A program made the position numbers and the translations under genes. Shown here piece by piece: positions 1,879 through 32,692 of a stretch of 64,000 bases of DNA. Under the pieces are notes generated by a model that made no database searches, was not told the DNA's origin, and was given only the letters and a program-made list of their open reading frames with translations. Location of the stretch: NCBI RefSeq assembly GCF_021228235.1, contig NZ_JAJQRG010000001.1, positions 248,001 to 312,000 on the forward strand, read 5' to 3'. Positions within the stretch are counted from its first letter, which is position 1, and the number at the start of each line of letters is the position of its first letter. This DNA comes from Pseudophaeobacter flagellatus. GTDB taxonomy: Bacteria; Pseudomonadota; Alphaproteobacteria; Rhodobacterales; Rhodobacteraceae.

Positions 1879-3200
1879 GCCGGGTCTCCTAGGTTGAGGC
1901 CGGCGATCAGCCGGGTGACCACCTGATCCAGTTGGCCGGATTGCGCTGCAAGATAGTCGCCTGCGGCGTCGCGGGCGGCGTGCAGCGCCTCTGGCTGAGT
2001 AAGCCAATGATCCACTGCTATAGCCAAACTGTCGGCATTCGCCACCTCGACTGCGCCGCCGACGGCGATCAGCGGCGGAAAGGTCTCGCTGAAATTGCTA
2101 TAGCCCGGGCCGGTCAGCACCGCGGCTTTGGCCTGGGCCACCTCAAAGGGGTTATGGCCGCCAATCGGCAGCAATGATCCCCCAAGAAAGACAATCTCGC
2201 TCAGCGCGTACCAACTGCCCAGCTCTCCCAATGTGTCGGCCAGATAGACCTGGGTTTCGCGGGCCAGGGGGGCACCGCTGCTGCGTTGTGCAAAGGTCAG
2301 GCCAGCCTTGGTGATCTTGTCGCTGACCTCGGCGGCGCGTGCCGGATGACGCGGTGCCAGAAGCAGGCAAAGATCCGGGTGATCGCGCAGCAGGACACGA
2401 TGGGCGGCCAGGATGATCTCTTCTTCGCCTTTGTGGGTTGAGCTGGCAATCCAGACCGGACGTCCAGCTAGCGCGGCGCGCATTTCGGCCACGAGGGCGG
2501 TGTCTTGCGGCAGCGCAGCAGCAGCGGCTTTGAGATTGCCACTGGGAAATACCCGGTCCGCATTGCCGCCAAGGGAGACCAAATCCTGCGCCACCGCAGG
2601 GTTCTGTGCCAGCAGCAGATCAAACAGCCCGAGGATGAAACGCGCCGTTGGCAGCTTCTTGCGCCAGCCGACAACCGAGCGCGCAGACAGGCGGGCATTG
2701 ACCAGCGCCAGCCGGATACCACGCGCCTTGGCGCTTGCCAGGGTGACTGGCCACAGCTCACTTTCGACAAAGATCCCGGCGTCGGGGCGCCAATGGTCCA
2801 GAAACCGCCGTACTGCCCTGGCGCTGTCCAGCGGTGCAAACTGGTGCTGGCAGCCCTCGGGCAGACGTTTGGCTGCCATCACCGCAGATGTCGCCGTGCC
2901 GGAGGTCAGCAAAAAACGTGCCTCGGGCAGCTGCGGGCGCAGGCGGTTGATGAGGGTCAGCGCCGCCTGGCTTTCGCCAACAGAGGCCCCGTGAAACCAG
3001 ATCAGCGCGGCGCCCGGTGCAAGATCAGGGCGGGGCTGGCTGGCCCGGCCAAGTCGTTCTCGCTGGCGCAGTTTGGGAATGCCTTCGGCGTCCAGTTTTG
3101 CGGCAACTTTGCGATAAACAAAGGGCAAGAGCATCGCGGTCAGGGCACGATAACTGTGAAACAGCAGCGTTGGCGGTGCTGTTTTTGCAGGTTTTGACAT
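1875..3200 (-). CDS. waaA: 3-deoxy-D-manno-octulosonic acid (Kdo) transferase
   Basis: 441 residues. WaaA transfers Kdo from CMP-Kdo to the lipid A precursor at the inner membrane, the first step of LPS inner-core synthesis. An N-terminal hydrophobic stretch (residues ~15-30) fits membrane attachment. The family motif WFHGASVGE (~68-76) includes the catalytic glutamate, and ESELWP follows at ~145. GGHNPFE and a GT-B C-terminal domain complete the family pattern. Nine bases separate it from moaA upstream, and its stop codon overlaps the start of the next glycosyltransferase, so moaA-waaA-glycosyltransferase is probably one transcript. Length is slightly above the usual ~425. Confidence 0.95.
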   Translation of the reverse strand: MSKPAKTAPPTLLFHSYRALTAMLLPFVYRKVAAKLDAEGIPKLRQRERLGRASQPRPDLAPGAALIWFHGASVGESQAALTLINRLRPQLPEARFLLTSGTATSAVMAAKRLPEGCQHQFAPLDSARAVRRFLDHWRPDAGIFVESELWPVTLASAKARGIRLALVNARLSARSVVGWRKKLPTARFILGLFDLLLAQNPAVAQDLVSLGGNADRVFPSGNLKAAAAALPQDTALVAEMRAALAGRPVWIASSTHKGEEEIILAAHRVLLRDHPDLCLLLAPRHPARAAEVSDKITKAGLTFAQRSSGAPLARETQVYLADTLGELGSWYALSEIVFLGGSLLPIGGHNPFEVAQAKAAVLTGPGYSNFSETFPPLIAVGGAVEVANADSLAIAVDHWLTQPEALHAARDAAGDYLAAQSGQLDQVVTRLIAGLNLGDPA

Positions 3201-3209
3201 GGTCTTCGC

Positions 3210-4220
3210 TTAACCGCCGGTATGGCTCATGTGGCGGGACATGGTGCCGCCGACTTCTTGCCGGGAATAGTCAAAATCATGGCCTTTTGGTTTGTCGCCA
3301 ATGGCGGCACGAATGGCATTTTCCAGCAGGTCAGAGCCCTCGGGGCTGGCCCGTAGTGGGCTGCGCAGATCAGCCGATCCTTCCTGGCCGAGGCAGGTAT
3401 AGATTTCGCCAGTGCAGGTGATGCGCACCCGGTTGCAGCTTTCGCAGAAGTTATGGCTGAGCGGGGTGATAAAGCCGATCTTCTGGCCGCTTTCTTCCAG
3501 GCGCACATAGCGCGCCGGGCCGCCAGAGCGTTCCGCCAGATCACTGACGGTATAGTGTTTTTCATATTCCGCGCGCAGCTCTTTCAGGGACCAGAACTGG
3601 CCGATGCGATTGGCATCGCCGATGTCTTCGCCCATGGGCATCACCTCGATCCAGGTCAGGTCGATGTCGCGGCTGGCGCACCAGCGGGTGATGTCCGGCA
3701 GCTCTGCCTCGTTGAACCCCTTTAGGGCGACGGCGTTGATCTTTACCCGCAGCCCCGCCTTTTGCGCCGCATCAATGCCGCGCAGCACCTGGGGCAGGCG
3801 GCCCCAGCGGGTGACGCGGGCGAATTTTTCTTCATCCAGGGTATCAAGCGAGATATTCACCCGGCGCACCCCGGCGGCAAACAGATCTTTGGCGTATTTT
3901 TCCAGCTGCGATCCATTGGTGGTCAGGGTCAGCTCTTGCAGGGCACCGCTGTCCAGATGCCGGGACATGGACTGAAAGAAGGTCATAATGCCGCGCCGCA
4001 CCAGGGGCTCTCCGCCGGTGATGCGCAGTTTTCGCACCCCCAATTTGACAAAGGTGGAGCATAGTCGATCCAGTTCTTCCAGGGTCAGCAGTTCTTTCTT
4101 GGGCAGAAAGGTCATATTTTCCGACATGCAATAGACGCAGCGGAAATCACAACGGTCGGTGACCGAGACGCGCAGATAGGTGATGGTGCGGGCGAAGGGA
4201 TCAATCAATGGAGCATTCAT
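3210..4220 (-). CDS. moaA: GTP 3',8-cyclase, molybdenum cofactor biosynthesis
   Basis: 336-residue radical SAM enzyme that converts GTP to 3',8-cyclo-7,8-dihydro-GTP, the first committed step to molybdopterin. The SAM cluster motif is CDFRCVYC (C24, C28, C31). GGEPLVRRG is the SAM-binding GGEP motif. The C-terminal second cluster has CESC about ten residues before TCLG ([20 protein letters not shown]). The protein ends in the conserved Gly-Gly that the family needs for activity. It is first in a run with waaA. An interrupted inverted repeat lies 16-47 bases before the start codon (4236-4267). Confidence 0.97.
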
Positions 4221-20677: not shown

Positions 20678-20710
20678 GGTGCCGCGAAACCTCGCGGCAC
20701 CTTTCCTTAT
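20678..20710 (+). terminator. Strong terminator of the liu operon
   Basis: GGTGCCGCGA and TCGCGGCACC form a perfect 10-bp stem with an AACC loop, followed by TTTCCTTA. It separates the liu and nuo operons. Confidence 0.88.
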
Positions 20711-21818: not shown

Positions 21819-22421
21819 ATGACTGAAGCACTGCAAGAACTCGGGACCCAGATCGCCGCCAAGCGCCCGGACTGCGTTTTGTCCTGGGATGTGGCTTACG
21901 ACGAGCTGAACGTTGATGTGGCCCCGGCCAATATCGCCGGTCTGGTTGAATTTCTGAAAACCGACAGTAACTGCAGGTTTTCATCCTTGGTGGATATTAC
22001 GGCGGTGGATTACCCCGAACGCGGCAAGCGGTTCGAAGTGGTTTATCACTTCCTGTCGATGTACCGGAACCAGCGTATCCGCCTGCGGGTCTCCATTCGC
22101 GAAGATGACATGGTGCCGTCGATTGTTGCTGTGCACCCTTCGGCCAACTGGTTTGAACGCGAAGTTTTCGACATGTTCGGCATCCTGTTTTCGGGCCATC
22201 CCGATTTGCGCCGCATCCTTACCGACTATGGCTTTCGCGGCTATCCGCTACGCAAGGATTTCCCCACCACGGGCTATACTGAAGTACGGTACGACGAGGC
22301 TGAAAAACGCGTTGTCTATGAGCCGGTGAATCTGGTGCAGGAATATCGCCAGTTTGATTTCATGTCCCCCTGGGAGGGTGCGGAATACATCCTGCCGGGC
22401 GATGAAAAGCAAGAGGGCTGA
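21819..22421 (+). CDS. nuoC: NADH-quinone oxidoreductase subunit C
   Basis: 200 residues, the 30-kDa subunit of the peripheral arm. The signature [36 protein letters not shown] (start ~residue 108) is complete, and the C-terminus [22 protein letters not shown] is typical of alphaproteobacteria and mitochondria. nuoC and nuoD are separate here, not fused as in enterobacteria. A sulfotransferase gene begins three bases after its stop and separates it from nuoD. Confidence 0.97.
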
Positions 22422-22424
22422 GGC

Positions 22425-23348
22425 ATGAGCGCGGCACAGATAGATCACCGGTTCTCGGAACCCACGACCCTGTTTTTTGGTGTCGGAGCCCAGAAGGCAG
22501 GGACAAGCTGGTTGCATGCCTACCTGAACCAGCACCCGGAGGCCTGCGTGCCGCCCGGCAAGGAGATGCATTACTGGAGCTATTGGCAAACCGGTTTGTC
22601 GTTCCACCATGATGTGCAGAAGAAAAGACTGGCGGGGCTTCGCGAGGCTGGCGAACAGCCTCCGGAGTTTCTGCAACGAAGTATCACCATGCGTGAAACC
22701 CGGGATCCGATGCATGGGCTTTATGCTGATATCGTATTCGAGCGCTTTAAAGGCCAGAAACTGGTGGGTGAAATCACGCCGGACTATTCAAATTTGAGCG
22801 TTGACACATTTGCGCAGATGGCGGCTTTGAACGCTGACACAAGGTTCGTGTTTTTGATGCGCGATCCTATCGAACGTCTGCATTCAGCCATGCGCAAGCA
22901 GTTGCGGGCGCGCGATAATGGCGACCGCTCGCGCAAAATCGGCAATGAGGAAATCCTGAACGAGCTGAAGACAATGCTTGGGCGCAAGAATTCTACGGCC
23001 CTGCGCCGCTCGCGCTACAATCTGACAATTGCCAATCTGGAAGCGGCTGTGGCACCAGAGAAAATCGGATATTTCTTTTACGAAGATATGTTCGAAAAGC
23101 GCAATGTTGACGATATCTGCGACTTTCTGGGGATTGCCCGCAAGCCGGGCGATTTTGATACCAAGGTGAACGTCGGTAACCCGCGCGAAAGAGAATTTGA
23201 TCCGGCATTCCGGGCGTTGGCCTTGGAGCATGTCGGAGATGTCTACGACCTGATGAAGGCAAGGTTTGGCGATCATTTGCCACAGGCGTGGAAAATGCAC
23301 ATTGATGGCGATGTTGACCTGTCAAAGGTTGCGGAGAATGTGAAATGA
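22425..23348 (+). CDS. Sulfotransferase domain protein inserted between nuoC and nuoD
   Basis: 307 residues. The 5'-phosphosulfate-binding loop of PAPS-dependent sulfotransferases is visible as GVGAQKAGTSWLHAYL near the N-terminus, and the 3'-phosphate-binding motif as VFLMRDPIERLHSAM (~residues 145-160). GEITPDYS and FYEDMF also fit Sulfotransfer_1/3 proteins. It would move sulfate from PAPS to an unknown hydroxyl or amine. No signal peptide or membrane helix is seen, so it should be cytosolic. It starts three bases after nuoC and its stop overlaps a small ORF. Hand counts of single lines suggest lower GC (29 of 60 at 22801) than nuoD (45 of 60 at 23521), which fits later insertion. Confidence 0.85.
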   Translation: MSAAQIDHRFSEPTTLFFGVGAQKAGTSWLHAYLNQHPEACVPPGKEMHYWSYWQTGLSFHHDVQKKRLAGLREAGEQPPEFLQRSITMRETRDPMHGLYADIVFERFKGQKLVGEITPDYSNLSVDTFAQMAALNADTRFVFLMRDPIERLHSAMRKQLRARDNGDRSRKIGNEEILNELKTMLGRKNSTALRRSRYNLTIANLEAAVAPEKIGYFFYEDMFEKRNVDDICDFLGIARKPGDFDTKVNVGNPREREFDPAFRALALEHVGDVYDLMKARFGDHLPQAWKMHIDGDVDLSKVAENVK

Positions 23349-23443
23349 GAGTGATCTGCAAGGATATGTACAGGGTAGACGCGGTGGGGTCGGCCAAGGA
23401 TCCGACCACGACGACCGCCCTGTGCATGAATGAAAAGGGATAA
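23345..23443 (+). CDS. Possible 32-residue ORF between the sulfotransferase gene and nuoD
   Basis: An ATG overlapping the sulfotransferase stop (ATGA) opens a 32-codon frame ending five bases before nuoD. The peptide has two cysteines and a TTTA stretch and no recognisable motif. It may be a real coupled leader-like ORF that keeps ribosomes moving into nuoD, or chance. The 100-base gap is otherwise unusual in this tightly packed operon. Confidence 0.3.
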
Positions 23444-23448
23444 TCGCT

Positions 23449-24663
23449 ATGATGGACGGCTCCAAATTCGATGACGCCCAGACCGGCGAGCAGAAGATCC
23501 GCAATTTTAACATCAACTTTGGCCCGCAGCACCCTGCGGCCCACGGGGTGTTGCGTCTGGTGCTGGAGCTGGACGGCGAGATTGTAGAGCGCTGCGACCC
23601 ACACATCGGCCTGCTGCACCGTGGCACCGAAAAGCTGATGGAAAGCCGCACCTACCTGCAGAACCTGCCGTATTTTGACCGGCTGGACTATGTGGCACCG
23701 ATGAACCAAGAGCATGCCTGGTGCTTGGCGATCGAAAAGCTGACTGGCGTTGAAGTGCCGCGCCGTGGCTCGCTTATCCGGGTTTTGTACTCTGAGATCG
23801 GCCGTATTTTGAACCACCTGCTGAACGTGACTACGCAGGCGATGGACGTTGGCGCGCTGACGCCGCCGCTCTGGGGGTTTGAGGAACGCGAAAAGCTGAT
23901 GGTGTTCTATGAGCGCGCCTGTGGTGCGCGTCTGCATGCCGCCTATTTCCGTCCCGGTGGCGTGCATCAGGACATCCCCGATGATCTTCTTGACGATATC
24001 GACCTCTGGGCGATGGAATTCCCCAAGGTCCTGGCTGATATCGACGGGTTGTTGACCGAAAACCGTATCTTCAAGCAGCGCAATTGCGATATTGGCGTGG
24101 TGACTGAGCAAGAGATCCTGGAATACGGCTTTTCCGGCGTGATGGTGCGTGGATCGGGCATGGCCTGGGATCTGCGCCGTGCGCAGCCCTACGAATGCTA
24201 TGATGAGTTCGACTTCCAAATCCCTGTGGGCAAGAACGGTGACTGCTATGATCGCTATCTGGTGCGCATGGAAGAGATGCGCCAGTCGCTGTCGATCATC
24301 CGTCAGGCCATTGTCAAACTGCGCGAGGCCACCGGCGATGTGATTGCGCGCGGCAAGCTGAGCCCGCCAAAACGCGGTGACATGAAGACCTCGATGGAGA
24401 GCCTCATTCACCACTTCAAACTCTACACCGAAGGCTTTCACGTGCCCGCCGGTGAGGTCTATGCCGCCGTTGAGGCCCCCAAGGGCGAATTTGGCGTCTA
24501 TCTGGTGGCAGATGGGTCGAACAAACCCTACCGCAGTAAAATCCGCGCGCCGGGCTTTTTGCACCTGCAAGCCATGGACCACGTTGCAAAAGGCCACCAG
24601 CTGGCCGACGTCGCTGCCATCATCGGCACCATGGACGTCGTATTTGGAGAGATTGACCGCTAA
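23449..24663 (+). CDS. nuoD: NADH-quinone oxidoreductase subunit D
   Basis: 404 residues, the 49-kDa quinone-site subunit related to hydrogenase large subunits. [21 protein letters not shown] at the N-terminus holds the His that lines the quinone pocket. [23 protein letters not shown] and the C-terminal [13 protein letters not shown] are all intact. AAGGGA lies ten bases upstream of the start. Its stop overlaps the nuoE ATG by one base (TAATG). Confidence 0.98.
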
Positions 24664-25882: not shown

Positions 25883-26122
25883 ATGAGCGCAGATCTGGAT
25901 AGGGCGATCGCAGCAAAGGGGCGGCACATCTCATTGGTGATTGCCGGAACCATGCTGGCCTGGTTGGCCTTGAATCTGATCATTGGCCCGGCAGTTGGAT
26001 TGCCTGGCCGCTTTGCGCTCTTGTTTGATTTCGCCGCTTTGGCCGCGATGGTCTATGCAGGGGTCAATATAGTGCAACTCTGGCGCATGCGTCAGGCCAG
26101 TAAAAACGACAACCAAGGGTAG
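25883..26122 (+). CDS. DUF5337-type small membrane protein in the nuo operon
   Basis: 79 residues with two predicted transmembrane helices (LVIAGTMLAWLALNLIIGP and FALLFDFAALAAMVYAGVNIV) and charged ends, so the termini probably share the cytoplasmic side. The pattern and position between nuoE and nuoF match the DUF5337 family of Rhodobacterales. It is six bases ahead of nuoF. A role in complex I assembly or membrane-arm stability is inferred from position only. Confidence 0.82.
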   Translation: MSADLDRAIAAKGRHISLVIAGTMLAWLALNLIIGPAVGLPGRFALLFDFAALAAMVYAGVNIVQLWRMRQASKNDNQG

Positions 26123-26128
26123 GCAGAC

Positions 26129-27427
26129 ATGCTGAAGGACCAGGACCGGATCTTTACCAACCTATACGGTATGCATGAGCGCAGCCTGAAAGGTGCCCAG
26201 GCGCGCGGCCATTGGGATGGGACATCGGGGATCATCGACAAGGGTCGGGACTGGATCGTCCAGACGATGAAGGATTCCGGCCTGCGTGGCCGTGGCGGTG
26301 CGGGTTTCCCCACCGGGCTGAAATGGTCTTTCATGCCGAAAGAGAGCGACGGGCGTCCATCCTATCTGGTTATCAACGCCGATGAATCCGAACCTGGCAC
26401 CTGCAAAGACCGCGAAATCATGCGCCATGATCCGCATACGCTGATCGAGGGCGCGCTGATTGCCAGCTTCGCGATGAACGCGCATACCTGCTACATCTAC
26501 CTGCGCGGCGAATATATCCGCGAGCGCGAGGCGCTGCAGGCGGCCATCGACGAATGCTACGACAAGGGGCTGCTGGGCAAGAACGCCGCTGGCTCCGGCT
26601 GGGATTTCGACGTCTTCCTGCACCATGGGGCTGGGGCCTATATCTGCGGCGAGGAAACCGCCCTGATCGAAAGCCTGGAAGGCAAAAAAGGCATGCCCCG
26701 GATGAAGCCGCCTTTCCCGGCGGGGGCGGGTCTCTATGGCTGCCCCACCACGGTTAATAACGTGGAGTCGATTGCCGTTGTGCCCACCATCCTGCGCCGC
26801 GGTGCGGATTGGTTTGCAGGCTTTGGCCGCCCCAATAATGCCGGCACCAAACTCTTTGCCATTTCGGGGCACGTCAACAACCCTTGTGTGGTGGAAGAGG
26901 CGATGAGCATCTCTTTTGAGGAGCTGATCGAAAAGCACTGCGGTGGTATTCGCGGCGGCTGGGACAATCTGCTGGCAGTGATCCCCGGTGGCTCCTCTGT
27001 GCCTTGTGTTCGCGGTGAAAACATGCGCGATGCAATCATGGATTTTGATTACCTGCGCGGCGAACTTGGTTCGGGCCTTGGTACCGCTGCGGTCATCGTG
27101 ATGGACAAGCAGACCGATATCATCAAGGCGATCTGGCGTCTGGCGAAATTCTACAAACACGAAAGCTGCGGCCAGTGTACGCCTTGCCGCGAAGGCACCG
27201 GCTGGATGATGCGGGTTATGGAACGTCTGGTCAAAGGCGAGGCGGATCTAGAAGAAATCGACATGCTGTGGGATGTGACCAAGCAGGTCGAAGGCCACAC
27301 CATCTGCGCCTTGGGCGATGCGGCGGCCTGGCCCATTCAGGGGTTGATCCGCAACTTCCGCGATGAAATCGAAGACCGCATCAAAGCGCAGAAAACTGGC
27401 CGCAAAAGCGCCATCGCTGCCGAATGA
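26129..27427 (+). CDS. nuoF: NADH-quinone oxidoreductase subunit F
   Basis: 432 residues, the 51-kDa subunit that binds NADH and FMN. The NADH/FMN glycine-rich loop is [18 protein letters not shown] (~residues 52-70); [15 protein letters not shown] is the FMN-binding part; cluster N3 cysteines are in [13 protein letters not shown] with the fourth in [13 protein letters not shown]. Full length. Its TGA overlaps a possible ATG of the next gene. Confidence 0.98.
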
Positions 27428-27450
27428 TGGGGCGTAAGGGACCAATGTTG

Positions 27451-27792
27451 ATGGGACATGTCAAATTGATGACGGCGACGCTTGTCGCAACCGCGCTTTT
27501 GGCGGCGTGCAGCGATAAGGACATGCGGCCTGTGTTTGATGGTGTGCCGTTCCGCACCAAGGCCTCTGTTGTCGATAAGAAAGTCACGCGGGCGCGATTC
27601 GAGGCGGAGGTCTACGACGTTGCGGCCTCGCCTCTGGGCGCGCGCGAGGCGATGCGCTATGCGGGCACCACCTATTGCATCCAGAACTACGGCACCTCCC
27701 GTATCGACTGGCCGCTGGATCTGGACGACCCAGAGGTGCCACTGCCGCGTGATGGCGACAATGCCGTGCTGCAGGGGGTCTGCAAGTCGTGA
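27451..27792 (+). CDS. Putative lipoprotein in the nuo operon (nuoF-nuoG)
   Basis: 113 residues from the ATG at 27451, which has AAGGGA nine bases upstream; the frame can also start at 27424, overlapping the nuoF stop. A lipoprotein signal ends in the lipobox LLAAC, followed by SDK. The mature part is ~95 residues with FDGVPFRTKA, two later cysteines (YCIQNYG and VCKS) and no known domain. It should be anchored in an envelope membrane facing the periplasm. Cotranscription with nuo is clear from spacing; function is unknown. Confidence 0.75.
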   Translation: MGHVKLMTATLVATALLAACSDKDMRPVFDGVPFRTKASVVDKKVTRARFEAEVYDVAASPLGAREAMRYAGTTYCIQNYGTSRIDWPLDLDDPEVPLPRDGDNAVLQGVCKS

Positions 27793-27889: not shown

Positions 27890-28315
27890 ATGAAATATGC
27901 TCAGATGAAACTGGCCTGGATTGCACCATTGATGGCGGCAGCGGCGTTTGCCGGTCCTTTGACTGCGGCGGCAAAACCGTCCCTGCGGGATGTGCCGGAA
28001 ATCGAAAACCCGCTGTTTGCCGTTGCGATGGCAAAAGAGGTGGCGGATCATTGTGACAGCCTCGGCGCGCGCTTCTTTAAAGGCGTGGGCGAATTGCGTC
28101 GATTGCGGGCGCGGGCCAATAACCTTGGCTACGCTGATGGCGAAATCCGCGCCTATATCGAATCCGACGTTGAAAAGGCCCGGATGCGGGCCAAGGGCGA
28201 AAGACTGCTGGCGGCGCGCGGCGTCTCTTATGGCAATCCAGAAACATTCTGTGCGTTCGGTCGTGCGGAAATCAAGAAAAACAGCGCGATCGGCGCGTTA
28301 CTGAGGGCGAAATAG
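27890..28315 (+). CDS. DUF5333-type secreted protein in the nuo operon
   Basis: 141 residues with a signal peptide (LAWIAPLMAAAAFAGPLTAAA), so likely periplasmic. The mature chain is helical and rich in Arg and Ala (ELRRLRARANNLGYADGEIRAYIESD), with two cysteines (DHCDSLG and TFCAFG) placed to form one disulfide. The pattern and position just before nuoG match DUF5333 proteins of Rhodobacterales. AGGAGAG lies upstream of the start and nuoG begins three bases after the stop. Role unknown. Confidence 0.8.
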   Translation: MKYAQMKLAWIAPLMAAAAFAGPLTAAAKPSLRDVPEIENPLFAVAMAKEVADHCDSLGARFFKGVGELRRLRARANNLGYADGEIRAYIESDVEKARMRAKGERLLAARGVSYGNPETFCAFGRAEIKKNSAIGALLRAK

Positions 28316-28318
28316 ACC

Positions 28319-30337
28319 ATGGCAGACCTCCGCAAGATCAACATTGACGGAACCGAGGTTGAGGTGGACGGGGCGATGACCCTGATCCAGGCCTGTGAAG
28401 AGGCGGGGGTGGAAATCCCGCGCTTCTGCTATCATGAGCGTCTGTCGATCGCCGGCAACTGCCGGATGTGTCTGGTAGAAGTCGTGGGCGGCCCGCCCAA
28501 ACCTGCCGCTTCCTGCGCGATGCAGGTGCGTGACTTGCGTCCTGGGCCGGAAGGTCAGGCACCACAGGTGAAGACCAATTCGCCGATGGTGAAAAAGGCG
28601 CGCGAAGGGGTGATGGAGTTCCTCCTGATCAACCACCCGCTGGATTGCCCGATCTGCGATCAGGGCGGCGAATGTGATCTGCAGGATCAGGCTATGGCCT
28701 ATGGCGTTGATTTTTCGCGCTTTCGCGAACCCAAGCGCGCGGTGGACGATCTGGACCTTGGCCCGCTTGTCGGCACCGCGATGACCCGCTGCATTTCTTG
28801 CACCCGCTGCGTACGCTTCACCACCGAGGTGGCCGGCATCACCCAGATGGGCCAGACCGGACGCGGCGAGGATGCAGAGATCACCTCCTATCTGAACGAA
28901 ACCTTGGACAGCAACCTGCAGGGCAACATCATTGATCTGTGCCCGGTTGGCGCGCTGACCTCGAAGCCTTATGCGTTTACCGCCCGCCCTTGGGAGCTCA
29001 CCAAGACCGAAACCATCGACGTAATGGACGCGCTTGGCTCCAACATCCGGGTTGACACCAAGGGCCGCGAAGTGATGCGCATCCTGCCGCGCAACCATGA
29101 TGGCGTGAACGAGGAGTGGATCTCCGACAAGACTCGCTTTGTCTGGGATGGCCTGCGTCGTCAGCGTCTGGACACGCCTTATGTGCGTGAGAACGGCAAA
29201 CTGCGCAAAGCCAGCTGGCCCGAGGCGCTTGATGTGGCTGCCGAGGCGATGAAGGGCAAGAAGATTGCTGGTTTGATCGGTGATCTGGTCCCGGTTGAAG
29301 CGGCTTTTGCACTGAAGCAGCTGGTTGAAGCCCAGGGCGGCCAGGTCGAATGCCGGACCGATAATGCGCGCCTGCCGATCGGAGACCGGGCTGGCTATGT
29401 CGGCACCGCAGCCATTGAGGATATCGACAACGCCAAGGCAATCATGTTGATCGGCACCGATCCGCGCAATGAATCGCCGGTGCTGAACGCGCGCCTGCGC
29501 CGGGCCTGGATCAATGGGGCCACTATCGGCCTGATCGGCCAGCCTGTCGATCTGACCTATGACTATACCCATCTGGGCACTGATCGCGCCGCGCTGGAAG
29601 CGCTGCAGTCTGGCGATCACTCTGGCGCTGAGGGCAAGGAAACCCTGGTGATTGTGGGGCAGGGCGCCCTGCGTGAGGCCGATGGTCTTGCAGTCCTGGC
29701 CCATGCCCAGAAATTTGCCGCTGATACCGGATCAAAACTCTTGGTGCTGCATACTGCGGCGGCACGGGTTGGCGCGATGGATATCGGCGCGGTGACCGAA
29801 GGCGGCATGGCCGCCGCCATCGAGGGGGCCGAGGTGATCTACAACCTGGGCGCGGACGAGGTGGAAATCGACGCCGGTGCCTTTGTGATCTATCAGGGCA
29901 GCCATGGTGATCGCGGCGCACATCGTGCTGACGTGATCCTGCCAGGCGCTGCCTATACCGAAGAAAACGGCCTTTTTGTCAATACCGAAGGACGGCCCCA
30001 GCTGGCGATGCGCGCGGGCTTTGCCCCCGGTGAAGCCAAGGAAAACTGGGCCATTTTGCGCGCGCTTAGCGCCGAGGTGGACGCAACTTTGCAGTATGAC
30101 TCGCTGGCGCAGCTGCGTCAGGCCCTGGTCAAGCAGGTGCCGCATCTGGCACAGGTCGATCAGGTGATCGAGAATGAGGGCACGCCGCTGGAACTGGGTC
30201 CGCTGGGCAAGGCGGCATTCCTGCCTGCGGTCAAGGATTTCTACCTGAGCAACCCGATTGCCCGAGCTTCCAAACTGATGGCAGAACTCTCGGCCAGTGC
30301 AAAGGCCCGCCGGGCCGAAAAGATGGCGGCCGAGTGA
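28319..30337 (+). CDS. nuoG: NADH-quinone oxidoreductase subunit G
   Basis: 672 residues, the 75-kDa subunit, of the shorter mitochondrial-like length. The N-terminal ferredoxin domain binds N1b: [19 protein letters not shown] and a further Cys. The His-ligated cluster N5 region is [20 protein letters not shown], and N4 is [10 protein letters not shown] with a later Cys in DLCPVGAL. The rest is an inactive molybdopterin-oxidoreductase-like domain. There is no extra N7 cluster motif. A GTG start of the next gene overlaps its stop (GTGA). Confidence 0.97.
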
Positions 30338-30720
30338 TCCGCGCTGCACTCATATCGTTTCTGACGCTGGCGGCCTGTGCGCCGATCCCCGGCGGTTCAG
30401 TGGATGGCGTTGCCCCCCAGTACAACGGGGTCGGCACCAGCCTGCTGGACGGCGATCTGGTGCAATTTCACGTCTCTATGTCTGGTGTCGCCGCAGGTGC
30501 GGATCTGGACAACTATGCCGAATGTGCCGCAGCACAATATGCGCTGATCCGCGGTTATGGGTTTGCGCGCCACGTGCGCACAAAAATGAAACAAGAGGGT
30601 GGCAATCAGATGGCCGATGCTGTCTACACGATCTCGCCCTCCCTTCCGCGCGGTTTGCGCACCATCGATGCAGAAGTCGTGGTCGCCAATTGCGAGGCTA
30701 ACGGAATACCTACGGTGTGA
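30334..30720 (+). CDS. Putative lipoprotein in the nuo operon (nuoG-nuoH)
   Basis: 128 residues starting at a GTG that overlaps the nuoG stop. The N-terminal [14 protein letters not shown] is a lipoprotein signal with lipobox LAAC, so the protein should be lipid-anchored and periplasm-facing. The mature part has [16 protein letters not shown] and two cysteines (ECAAAQYA and NCEANG), with [14 protein letters not shown]. No known family is recognised. It ends six bases before nuoH. Together with the lipoprotein at 27451 it gives two periplasmic lipoproteins in a complex I operon. Confidence 0.78.
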
Positions 30721-30726
30721 GGACCT

Positions 30727-32688
<1,962 letters not shown>

Positions 32689-32692
<4 letters not shown>

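Follow-up and report, generated by a model that had tools for sequence, protein, structure and literature searches.

The window, the whole 64,000-nucleotide stretch of DNA that was analysed, contains a nuoA–N operon with a sulfotransferase gene (ST) inside it, between nuoC and nuoD (Table 1). The gene begins three bases after the nuoC stop and is followed, after 100 bases, by the nuoD start. Both gaps are exactly those of the original prediction, as are the coordinates of the intact reading frame, and Pfam confirms the sulfotransferase and both flanking subunits. ST matches Sulfotransfer_3 (PF13469; E 1e-11, 45.9 bits against a gathering cut-off of 27) and, also above the cut-off, Sulfotransfer_1 (E 8.5e-8); no match was found in NCBIfam. 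Using simple consensus patterns, we found no sigma-70-like promoter and no terminator-like site between positions 20700 and 23700, and co-transcription of ST with the nuo genes is therefore likely.

Table 1. Features at the nuoC–nuoD junction and accessory reading frames between other nuo genes of the window
Feature	Coordinates	Strand	Details
nuoC (left flank)	21819..22421	+	PF00329 Complex1_30kDa, E 7.4e-48
PAPS-dependent sulfotransferase (ST), type B	22425..23348	+	Intact ORF, 307 aa
32-aa ORF overlapping the ST stop	23345..23443	+	Probably non-coding spacer
nuoD (right flank)	23449..24663	+	PF00346 Complex1_49kDa, E 3e-118
Further accessory ORF	25883..26119
Further accessory ORF	27424..27792
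Further accessory ORF	27890..28315
Further accessory ORF	30334..30720
Further accessory ORF	32261..32692

A spacer of about 100 bases precedes nuoD in the window and in three genomes of its genus (G003, G011 and G007). The short reading frame within it is unsupported as a gene: it has no match in PHROG, and a comparison of the equivalent stretch in G003 and G011 gives 6/3/2 differences at the three codon positions, a pattern that looks non-coding, compared with 17/18/61 in ST. Of 90 loci, some of them from the same genome, 73 have an ST stop at −5 to +4 bases relative to the start of nuoD.

PAPS-dependent sulfotransferases are recognised by a 5' phosphosulfate loop with a lysine and a 3' phosphate motif running from an arginine to a serine. 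Both motifs claimed by the original prediction are present in ST, the 5' loop as GAQKAGTSWL (G21–L30) and the 3' motif as RDPIERLHS (R146–S154), and their key residues are conserved. G21, K24, R146, P148 and R151 are invariant in two alignments of 35 and 77 sequences, and E47 and S154 are conserved at 90% or more in both. K46 and E47 lie between the two motifs; E47 is the likely catalytic base, a role that we assume from 3-OST and NDST. Judged by its sequence, ST thus has the hallmarks of a PAPS-dependent enzyme. Its predicted structure has a pLDDT of 92.4 (prediction without an alignment was poor, at 41.4). In VIA-align comparisons the model scores Z 20.5 to 3rnl, 19.2 to NDST1 and 19.1 to 3-OST-3, the 3-OST/NDST range being 17.9–19.2, compared with about 13 for tyrosyl-protein sulfotransferases (TPST) and about 10 for cytosolic ones. 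Foldseek ranks TPST above 3-OST by E-value, but with lower TM-scores. A profile search also returned 3-OSTs and aligned E47 (KE-hYF) with the glutamate of the 3-OST motif E-HFF. By VIA-align, the predicted fold is nearest the heparan-sulfate-type glycan sulfotransferases, with E47 aligned to their likely catalytic glutamate, a similarity that concerns the kind of fold and not the substrate.

The GC counts from which the original prediction argued, 29/60 at 22801 and 45/60 at 23521, are exact, but they represent two picked lines. Low-GC blocks of 60 bases (at most 29 GC) make up 4/15 of ST and 15/273 of the rest of the operon. Over the whole gene, GC is 0.535 and GC3 is 0.630, compared with a GC of 0.583 in nuoD; nuoA is the one nuo gene, out of 14, with lower values than ST (GC 0.486, GC3 0.557). 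Across the 90 loci, GC of ST minus that of nuoD has a median of +0.035, and the difference is negative in the window. The window ST is somewhat GC-poor for its own operon, but low GC is not a trait of the family, and we rejected GC as a sign of foreign origin.

Within the genus, five of 12 genomes match ST at E ≤0.001, and four (G000, G003, G011 and G007) carry it between nuoC and nuoD; in G007 it is split over contig ends into two pieces that overlap. Six other genomes have an empty junction, with the nuoC stop overlapping the nuoD start; the junction of G002 seems empty as well, judged from alignment positions, and that of G004 holds a different short ORF. The fifth match, in G001 (28% identity), lies elsewhere. 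The genus carriers are 63–69% identical to the window ST, whereas their nuoD proteins are 98–99% identical to one another, and on the nuoD tree the carriers do not form one clade (three changes). G007 (L015) and G011 (L012) each have an extra stretch of their own between nuoD and nuoE, with a 111-aa ORF in G007, that the window lacks.

The gene is found at the same place well beyond the genus. In a search of 394 family genomes, about one per genus and including the window's own, 69 match ST at E ≤1e-30. Of the 29 listed matches with a known nuoD position, again counting the own genome, 27 are adjacent to nuoD, and among 29 further family loci that were fetched, ST lies between nuoC and nuoD, with both flanks identified, in 27. 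To these we can add the best 80 relatives from named genomes, kept from a longer list: 58 lie at nuoC–nuoD (56 with both flanks, one with nuoD only and one with nuoC only), two are on the opposite strand beside nuoA–D, and 20 lie elsewhere. Among the matches listed, junction carriers include Yoonia, Rhodovulum, Nioella, Roseicyclus, Actibacterium, Shimia, Marimonas, Halocynthiibacter and Palleronia, and of the nearest relatives outside the genus, L199 (44% identity), L200, L202 and L203 are at nuoC–nuoD and L201 is not. A class-wide sample of 289 genomes gave seven matches at 1e-30; four of them are outside the family, and in none of these four is ST on the nuoD contig. A phage origin was considered and rejected: in 31 related loci from viral_contigs, nuo genes adjoin in none and the best-segment identity is at most 31%, and the PHROG match of ST reaches just E 0.033.

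Occupancy of the junction was measured in 120 family operons of up to 20 kb. Eighty are a random draw from about 147 of 150 listed nuoD positions, themselves the more similar share of 380; the other 40 were obtained from 60 drawn among 80 further genomes searched. ST sequence is present at nuoC–nuoD in 34 operons (21/80 and 13/40), two of them with broken copies (L184 and L130); clustering of ORFs alone finds 33. The original prediction had reasoned that a recent insertion would be refuted if most Rhodobacterales had a conserved sulfotransferase here with the GC of the nuo genes. The place is indeed the same, but the share is about 28% of the sampled genera, not most. Among the other junctions covered, with L–M measured in 83 and M–N in 47 of the 120 operons, ST occurs once, at nuoB–nuoC (L136, oriented positions 2533–3408). 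A further premise of the original prediction, that nuoC and nuoD are normally adjacent, fails in this family, where 27/120 operons have the two genes separated by at most 30 bases. Other occupants of the gap include a small hydrophobic protein (27 loci without ST and five beside it), an ORF that we take to be SnoaL-like by resemblance and an ORF of the GFA family.

On the nuo tree of 121 operons, the presence of ST changes 21 times, compared with a mean of 30.5 and a minimum of 27 in 60 shuffles. Presence is thus clumped, with many gains or losses; the count does not separate one from the other, and some gains may have come by transfer. Loss does occur, as indicated by the two broken copies and by one remnant (L151, 54 aa, E 5e-5) among 53 ST-less nuoC–nuoD gaps longer than 60 bases, a search in which a reversed-protein control gave none.

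The ST tree separates two groups. In the 122-row tree, a quick tree with long branches, the nuo label changes four times, compared with 30.6 when shuffled, and a type A clade of 65 rows, all from nuo operons, has an SH-aLRT of 96. This first tree was built without L110 (start unsure), L184 (broken), L206 and L216 (internal stop codon), two duplicates and the viral rows after L284; L110 and L184 are also absent from A1. The window ST falls outside type A and groups with other nuo rows and an off-operon branch; type B here means not A. In the second tree, four distinct loci (L200, L202, L207 and L226, the last the same as L040) have a tandem arrangement nuoC–B–A–nuoD, so both types can share the slot. 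L239 has two type B genes, and L266 two type A genes, one of which is outside both groups on the first tree; the tandem pairs of L021, L025, L054 and L209 are untyped. The window ST may descend from a B–A pair that lost A. Separately, L246 and L275 carry related STs on the opposite strand beside nuoA–D, which form a well-supported pair of their own on the ST tree.

To estimate the age of ST relative to its neighbors, we compared synonymous divergence in pairs of genus carriers. The dS values of ST, nuoC and nuoD are 0.36, 0.36 and 0.25 for G003–G011, 1.31, 1.21 and 0.59 for G000–G011, and 1.43, 1.24 and 0.58 for G000–G003. For G000–G007, ST gives two values, 1.23 and 1.09, about twice that of nuoC (0.62), with nuoD at 0.53. 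ST dS is near that of nuoC in three of the four pairs and above that of nuoD in all four; by this measure the age of the gene seems similar to that of nuoC in three pairs and greater in G000–G007. Its dN/dS in these pairs is 0.13–0.21, compared with 0.01–0.04 for nuoC and nuoD. For other genera we chose 15 close pairs by hand from the ST tree, a choice that leans towards vertical cases; here ST dS is 0.56–2.3 times that of nuoC (median 1.27, above nuoC in 11/15), and dN/dS is 0.11–0.51, exceeding that of nuoC in 13/15. These values indicate inheritance with the operon over short times, under purifying selection, and they disfavour the earlier suggestion of a passenger, if that is taken to mean DNA free of constraint.

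The deep vertical signal is weak. Protein distances of ST are 8.4–9.0 times those of five core subunits. In Mantel comparisons with the nuo tree, type A gives a rho of 0.31 (permutation maximum 0.29) and all sequences together 0.30 (maximum 0.32); against nuoC and nuoD, the 77 type A rows give 0.26 (maximum 0.22) and the 26 non-A rows, including the window, 0.07 (maximum 0.40). ST shares this behavior with the other accessory genes of the operon, which have distances 3.6–8.2 times those of the core subunits over all carriers and rho between −0.03 and 0.37; since weak congruence is common to them, saturation may explain that of ST.

Each of the five further accessory families (Table 1) is confined to one junction, those at E–F, G–H and I–J being present in 101, 96 and 90 of the 121 operons. 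The I–J ORF matches CMD and the second F–G ORF DUF5333 in Pfam, where the G–H and first F–G ORFs have no match. In other operons, an ORF with a methyltransferase domain above the Pfam cut-off lies at F–G (L148, 5952–6731), and a possible one, below the cut-offs, at H–I (L116, 5874–6635).

What ST acts on is suggested by its relatives as well as by its fold. Near 12 relatives that lie outside the operon on other contigs, we scanned 51 of 57 neighboring ORFs; they include sugar-nucleotide, glycosyltransferase and polysaccharide-export families, together with RTX repeats and unrelated enzymes. From 18 records that matched, we also looked at three relatives on plasmids of the Roseobacter group: Leisingera pBMJM1_7, Thalassococcus pS3B and Sulfitobacter pSD118. 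Their STs are 31–32% identical to that of the window but, unlike it, lie among glycosyltransferase or nucleotide-sugar genes of polysaccharide clusters and not in nuo operons. The pSD118 match covers one portion of a gene annotated as longer and belongs to the off-operon branch within the window's larger group; the two plasmid STs whose surroundings point most clearly to glycans (L308 and L309) group with outer rows of the ST tree, not beside the window ST. No recognised glycan gene was found at the nuo loci. APS kinase makes PAPS, and its gene is present in 33/33 ST-bearing genomes tested and also in 43/46 ST-less genomes; being nearly universal, it does not discriminate the carriers. By analogy with these relatives and from the modelled fold, a glycan is the most likely substrate. 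A small molecule or lipid is an unlikely one: sulfotransferase domains of the curacin pathway and of olefin synthase match the fold (Z 13.6 and 14.2), but 3-OST and NDST score clearly higher.

How did ST come to lie in this operon? The original prediction favoured a foreign or recent insertion, in which a horizontally acquired sulfotransferase landed between nuoC and nuoD and the operon kept working. The patchiness within the genus, the overlapping nuoC and nuoD of the empty sister junctions and the GC deficit relative to nuoD, with the excess of low-GC blocks over the rest of the operon, would all fit such an event. Nevertheless, we consider it very improbable: an insert of this kind should diverge unlike its flanks at a site without relatives, and neither was found. 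The same site is occupied across the family and in four of the five nearest extra-generic relatives among the matches listed, ST dS is near that of nuoC in three of four genus pairs and 0.56–2.3 times it in the close pairs, nuoA is lower still in GC, and over the 90 loci ST mostly has a higher GC than nuoD. An old resident whose alleles were repeatedly replaced is fairly unlikely, though less so. By this account the slot is a cassette in which lineages exchange alleles by recombination in the conserved flanking genes, nuoC and nuoD, possibly driven by phages or grazers that act on a surface glycan. Highly conserved flanks around variable contents, the limited agreement with nuo trees (absent in the group of the window ST), the number of presence changes and the ST dS above that of nuoC in most close pairs and in G000–G007 are all consistent with it. 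The dS excess over the 15 pairs is modest, however, and may reflect a codon-use constraint on the nuo genes, and the other accessory genes are comparably weak in congruence.

The fixed place and the closeness to nuoD could also mean that ST acts on or binds complex I, as an assembly factor or supernumerary subunit. There is a precedent in CI-PIMT, a PIMT-fold protein bound to complex I of Paracoccus denitrificans, although it has lost its catalytic residues, whereas ST keeps its own; the accessible part of that account names no sulfotransferase (PMC11522691). ST is absent from 86/120 operons and from 8/12 genus genomes, and its divergence next to a nearly invariant nuoD in the same species is unexpected for a binder of conserved subunits. 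Moreover, junction-specific accessory genes are general in the nuo operon. We regard a role as complex I partner as quite unlikely.

Based on these observations, we think it probable, without being confident, that ST belongs to the nuo operon of Rhodobacteraceae sensu lato as a resident accessory gene, encoding an active PAPS-dependent glycan sulfotransferase of the 3-OST/NDST-like kind that is co-expressed with complex I. The gene would be transcribed along with the nuo genes, and, with its stop touching or overlapping the start of nuoD in most relatives, its dose would follow that of complex I. The enzyme would add sulfate to a sugar of a surface or exported glycan, such as capsule, exopolysaccharide, LPS or a glycolipid precursor. 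Lineages A and B would be old, fast-changing holders of the nuoC–nuoD slot within the family, and loss in many lineages, rather than gain, would be the main cause of the patchy distribution. It is a tentative idea, and a rather doubtful one, that the slot is long-lived and keeps a surface-glycan sulfotransferase under the control of complex I, so that the charge of the coat follows respiratory growth, with fast divergence driven by phage or grazer pressure on glycans. Other nuo junctions also keep their own accessory genes, and history alone may explain the fixed place of ST.

What looked like one odd insertion is thus part of a family-wide pattern, in which a constrained, fast-changing and apparently active sulfotransferase occupies one site of a core respiratory operon. 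More generally, several junctions of the family's nuo operon are slots for accessory genes of their own, many of which lack a Pfam match. We found no paper on the nuoC–nuoD sulfotransferase slot or its lineages in a literature search that mostly left out subscription papers and so does not prove their absence; for a sulfotransferase in the Rhodobacter nuo operon, the search returned only PMC6731281, unrelated in its accessible part.

Among known enzymes, 3-OSTs and the sulfotransferase domain of NDST (6xkg, 1t8t and 8ccy) resemble the window ST in predicted fold (Z 18–19), PAPS motifs and the aligned, likely catalytic glutamate, whereas ST is only 15–20% identical to them, bacterial and located in a respiratory operon. 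Its best match in both fold and sequence is 3rnl from Alicyclobacillus (25% identity, profile E 1.3e-25), for which we know of no function. Among known operons, the nuo/nqo operons of Rhodobacter and Paracoccus contain unidentified reading frames and, like the operon described here, carry extra genes between the nuo genes; the nuoC–nuoD slot, the sulfotransferases that it holds and their two lineages are results of the present analysis.
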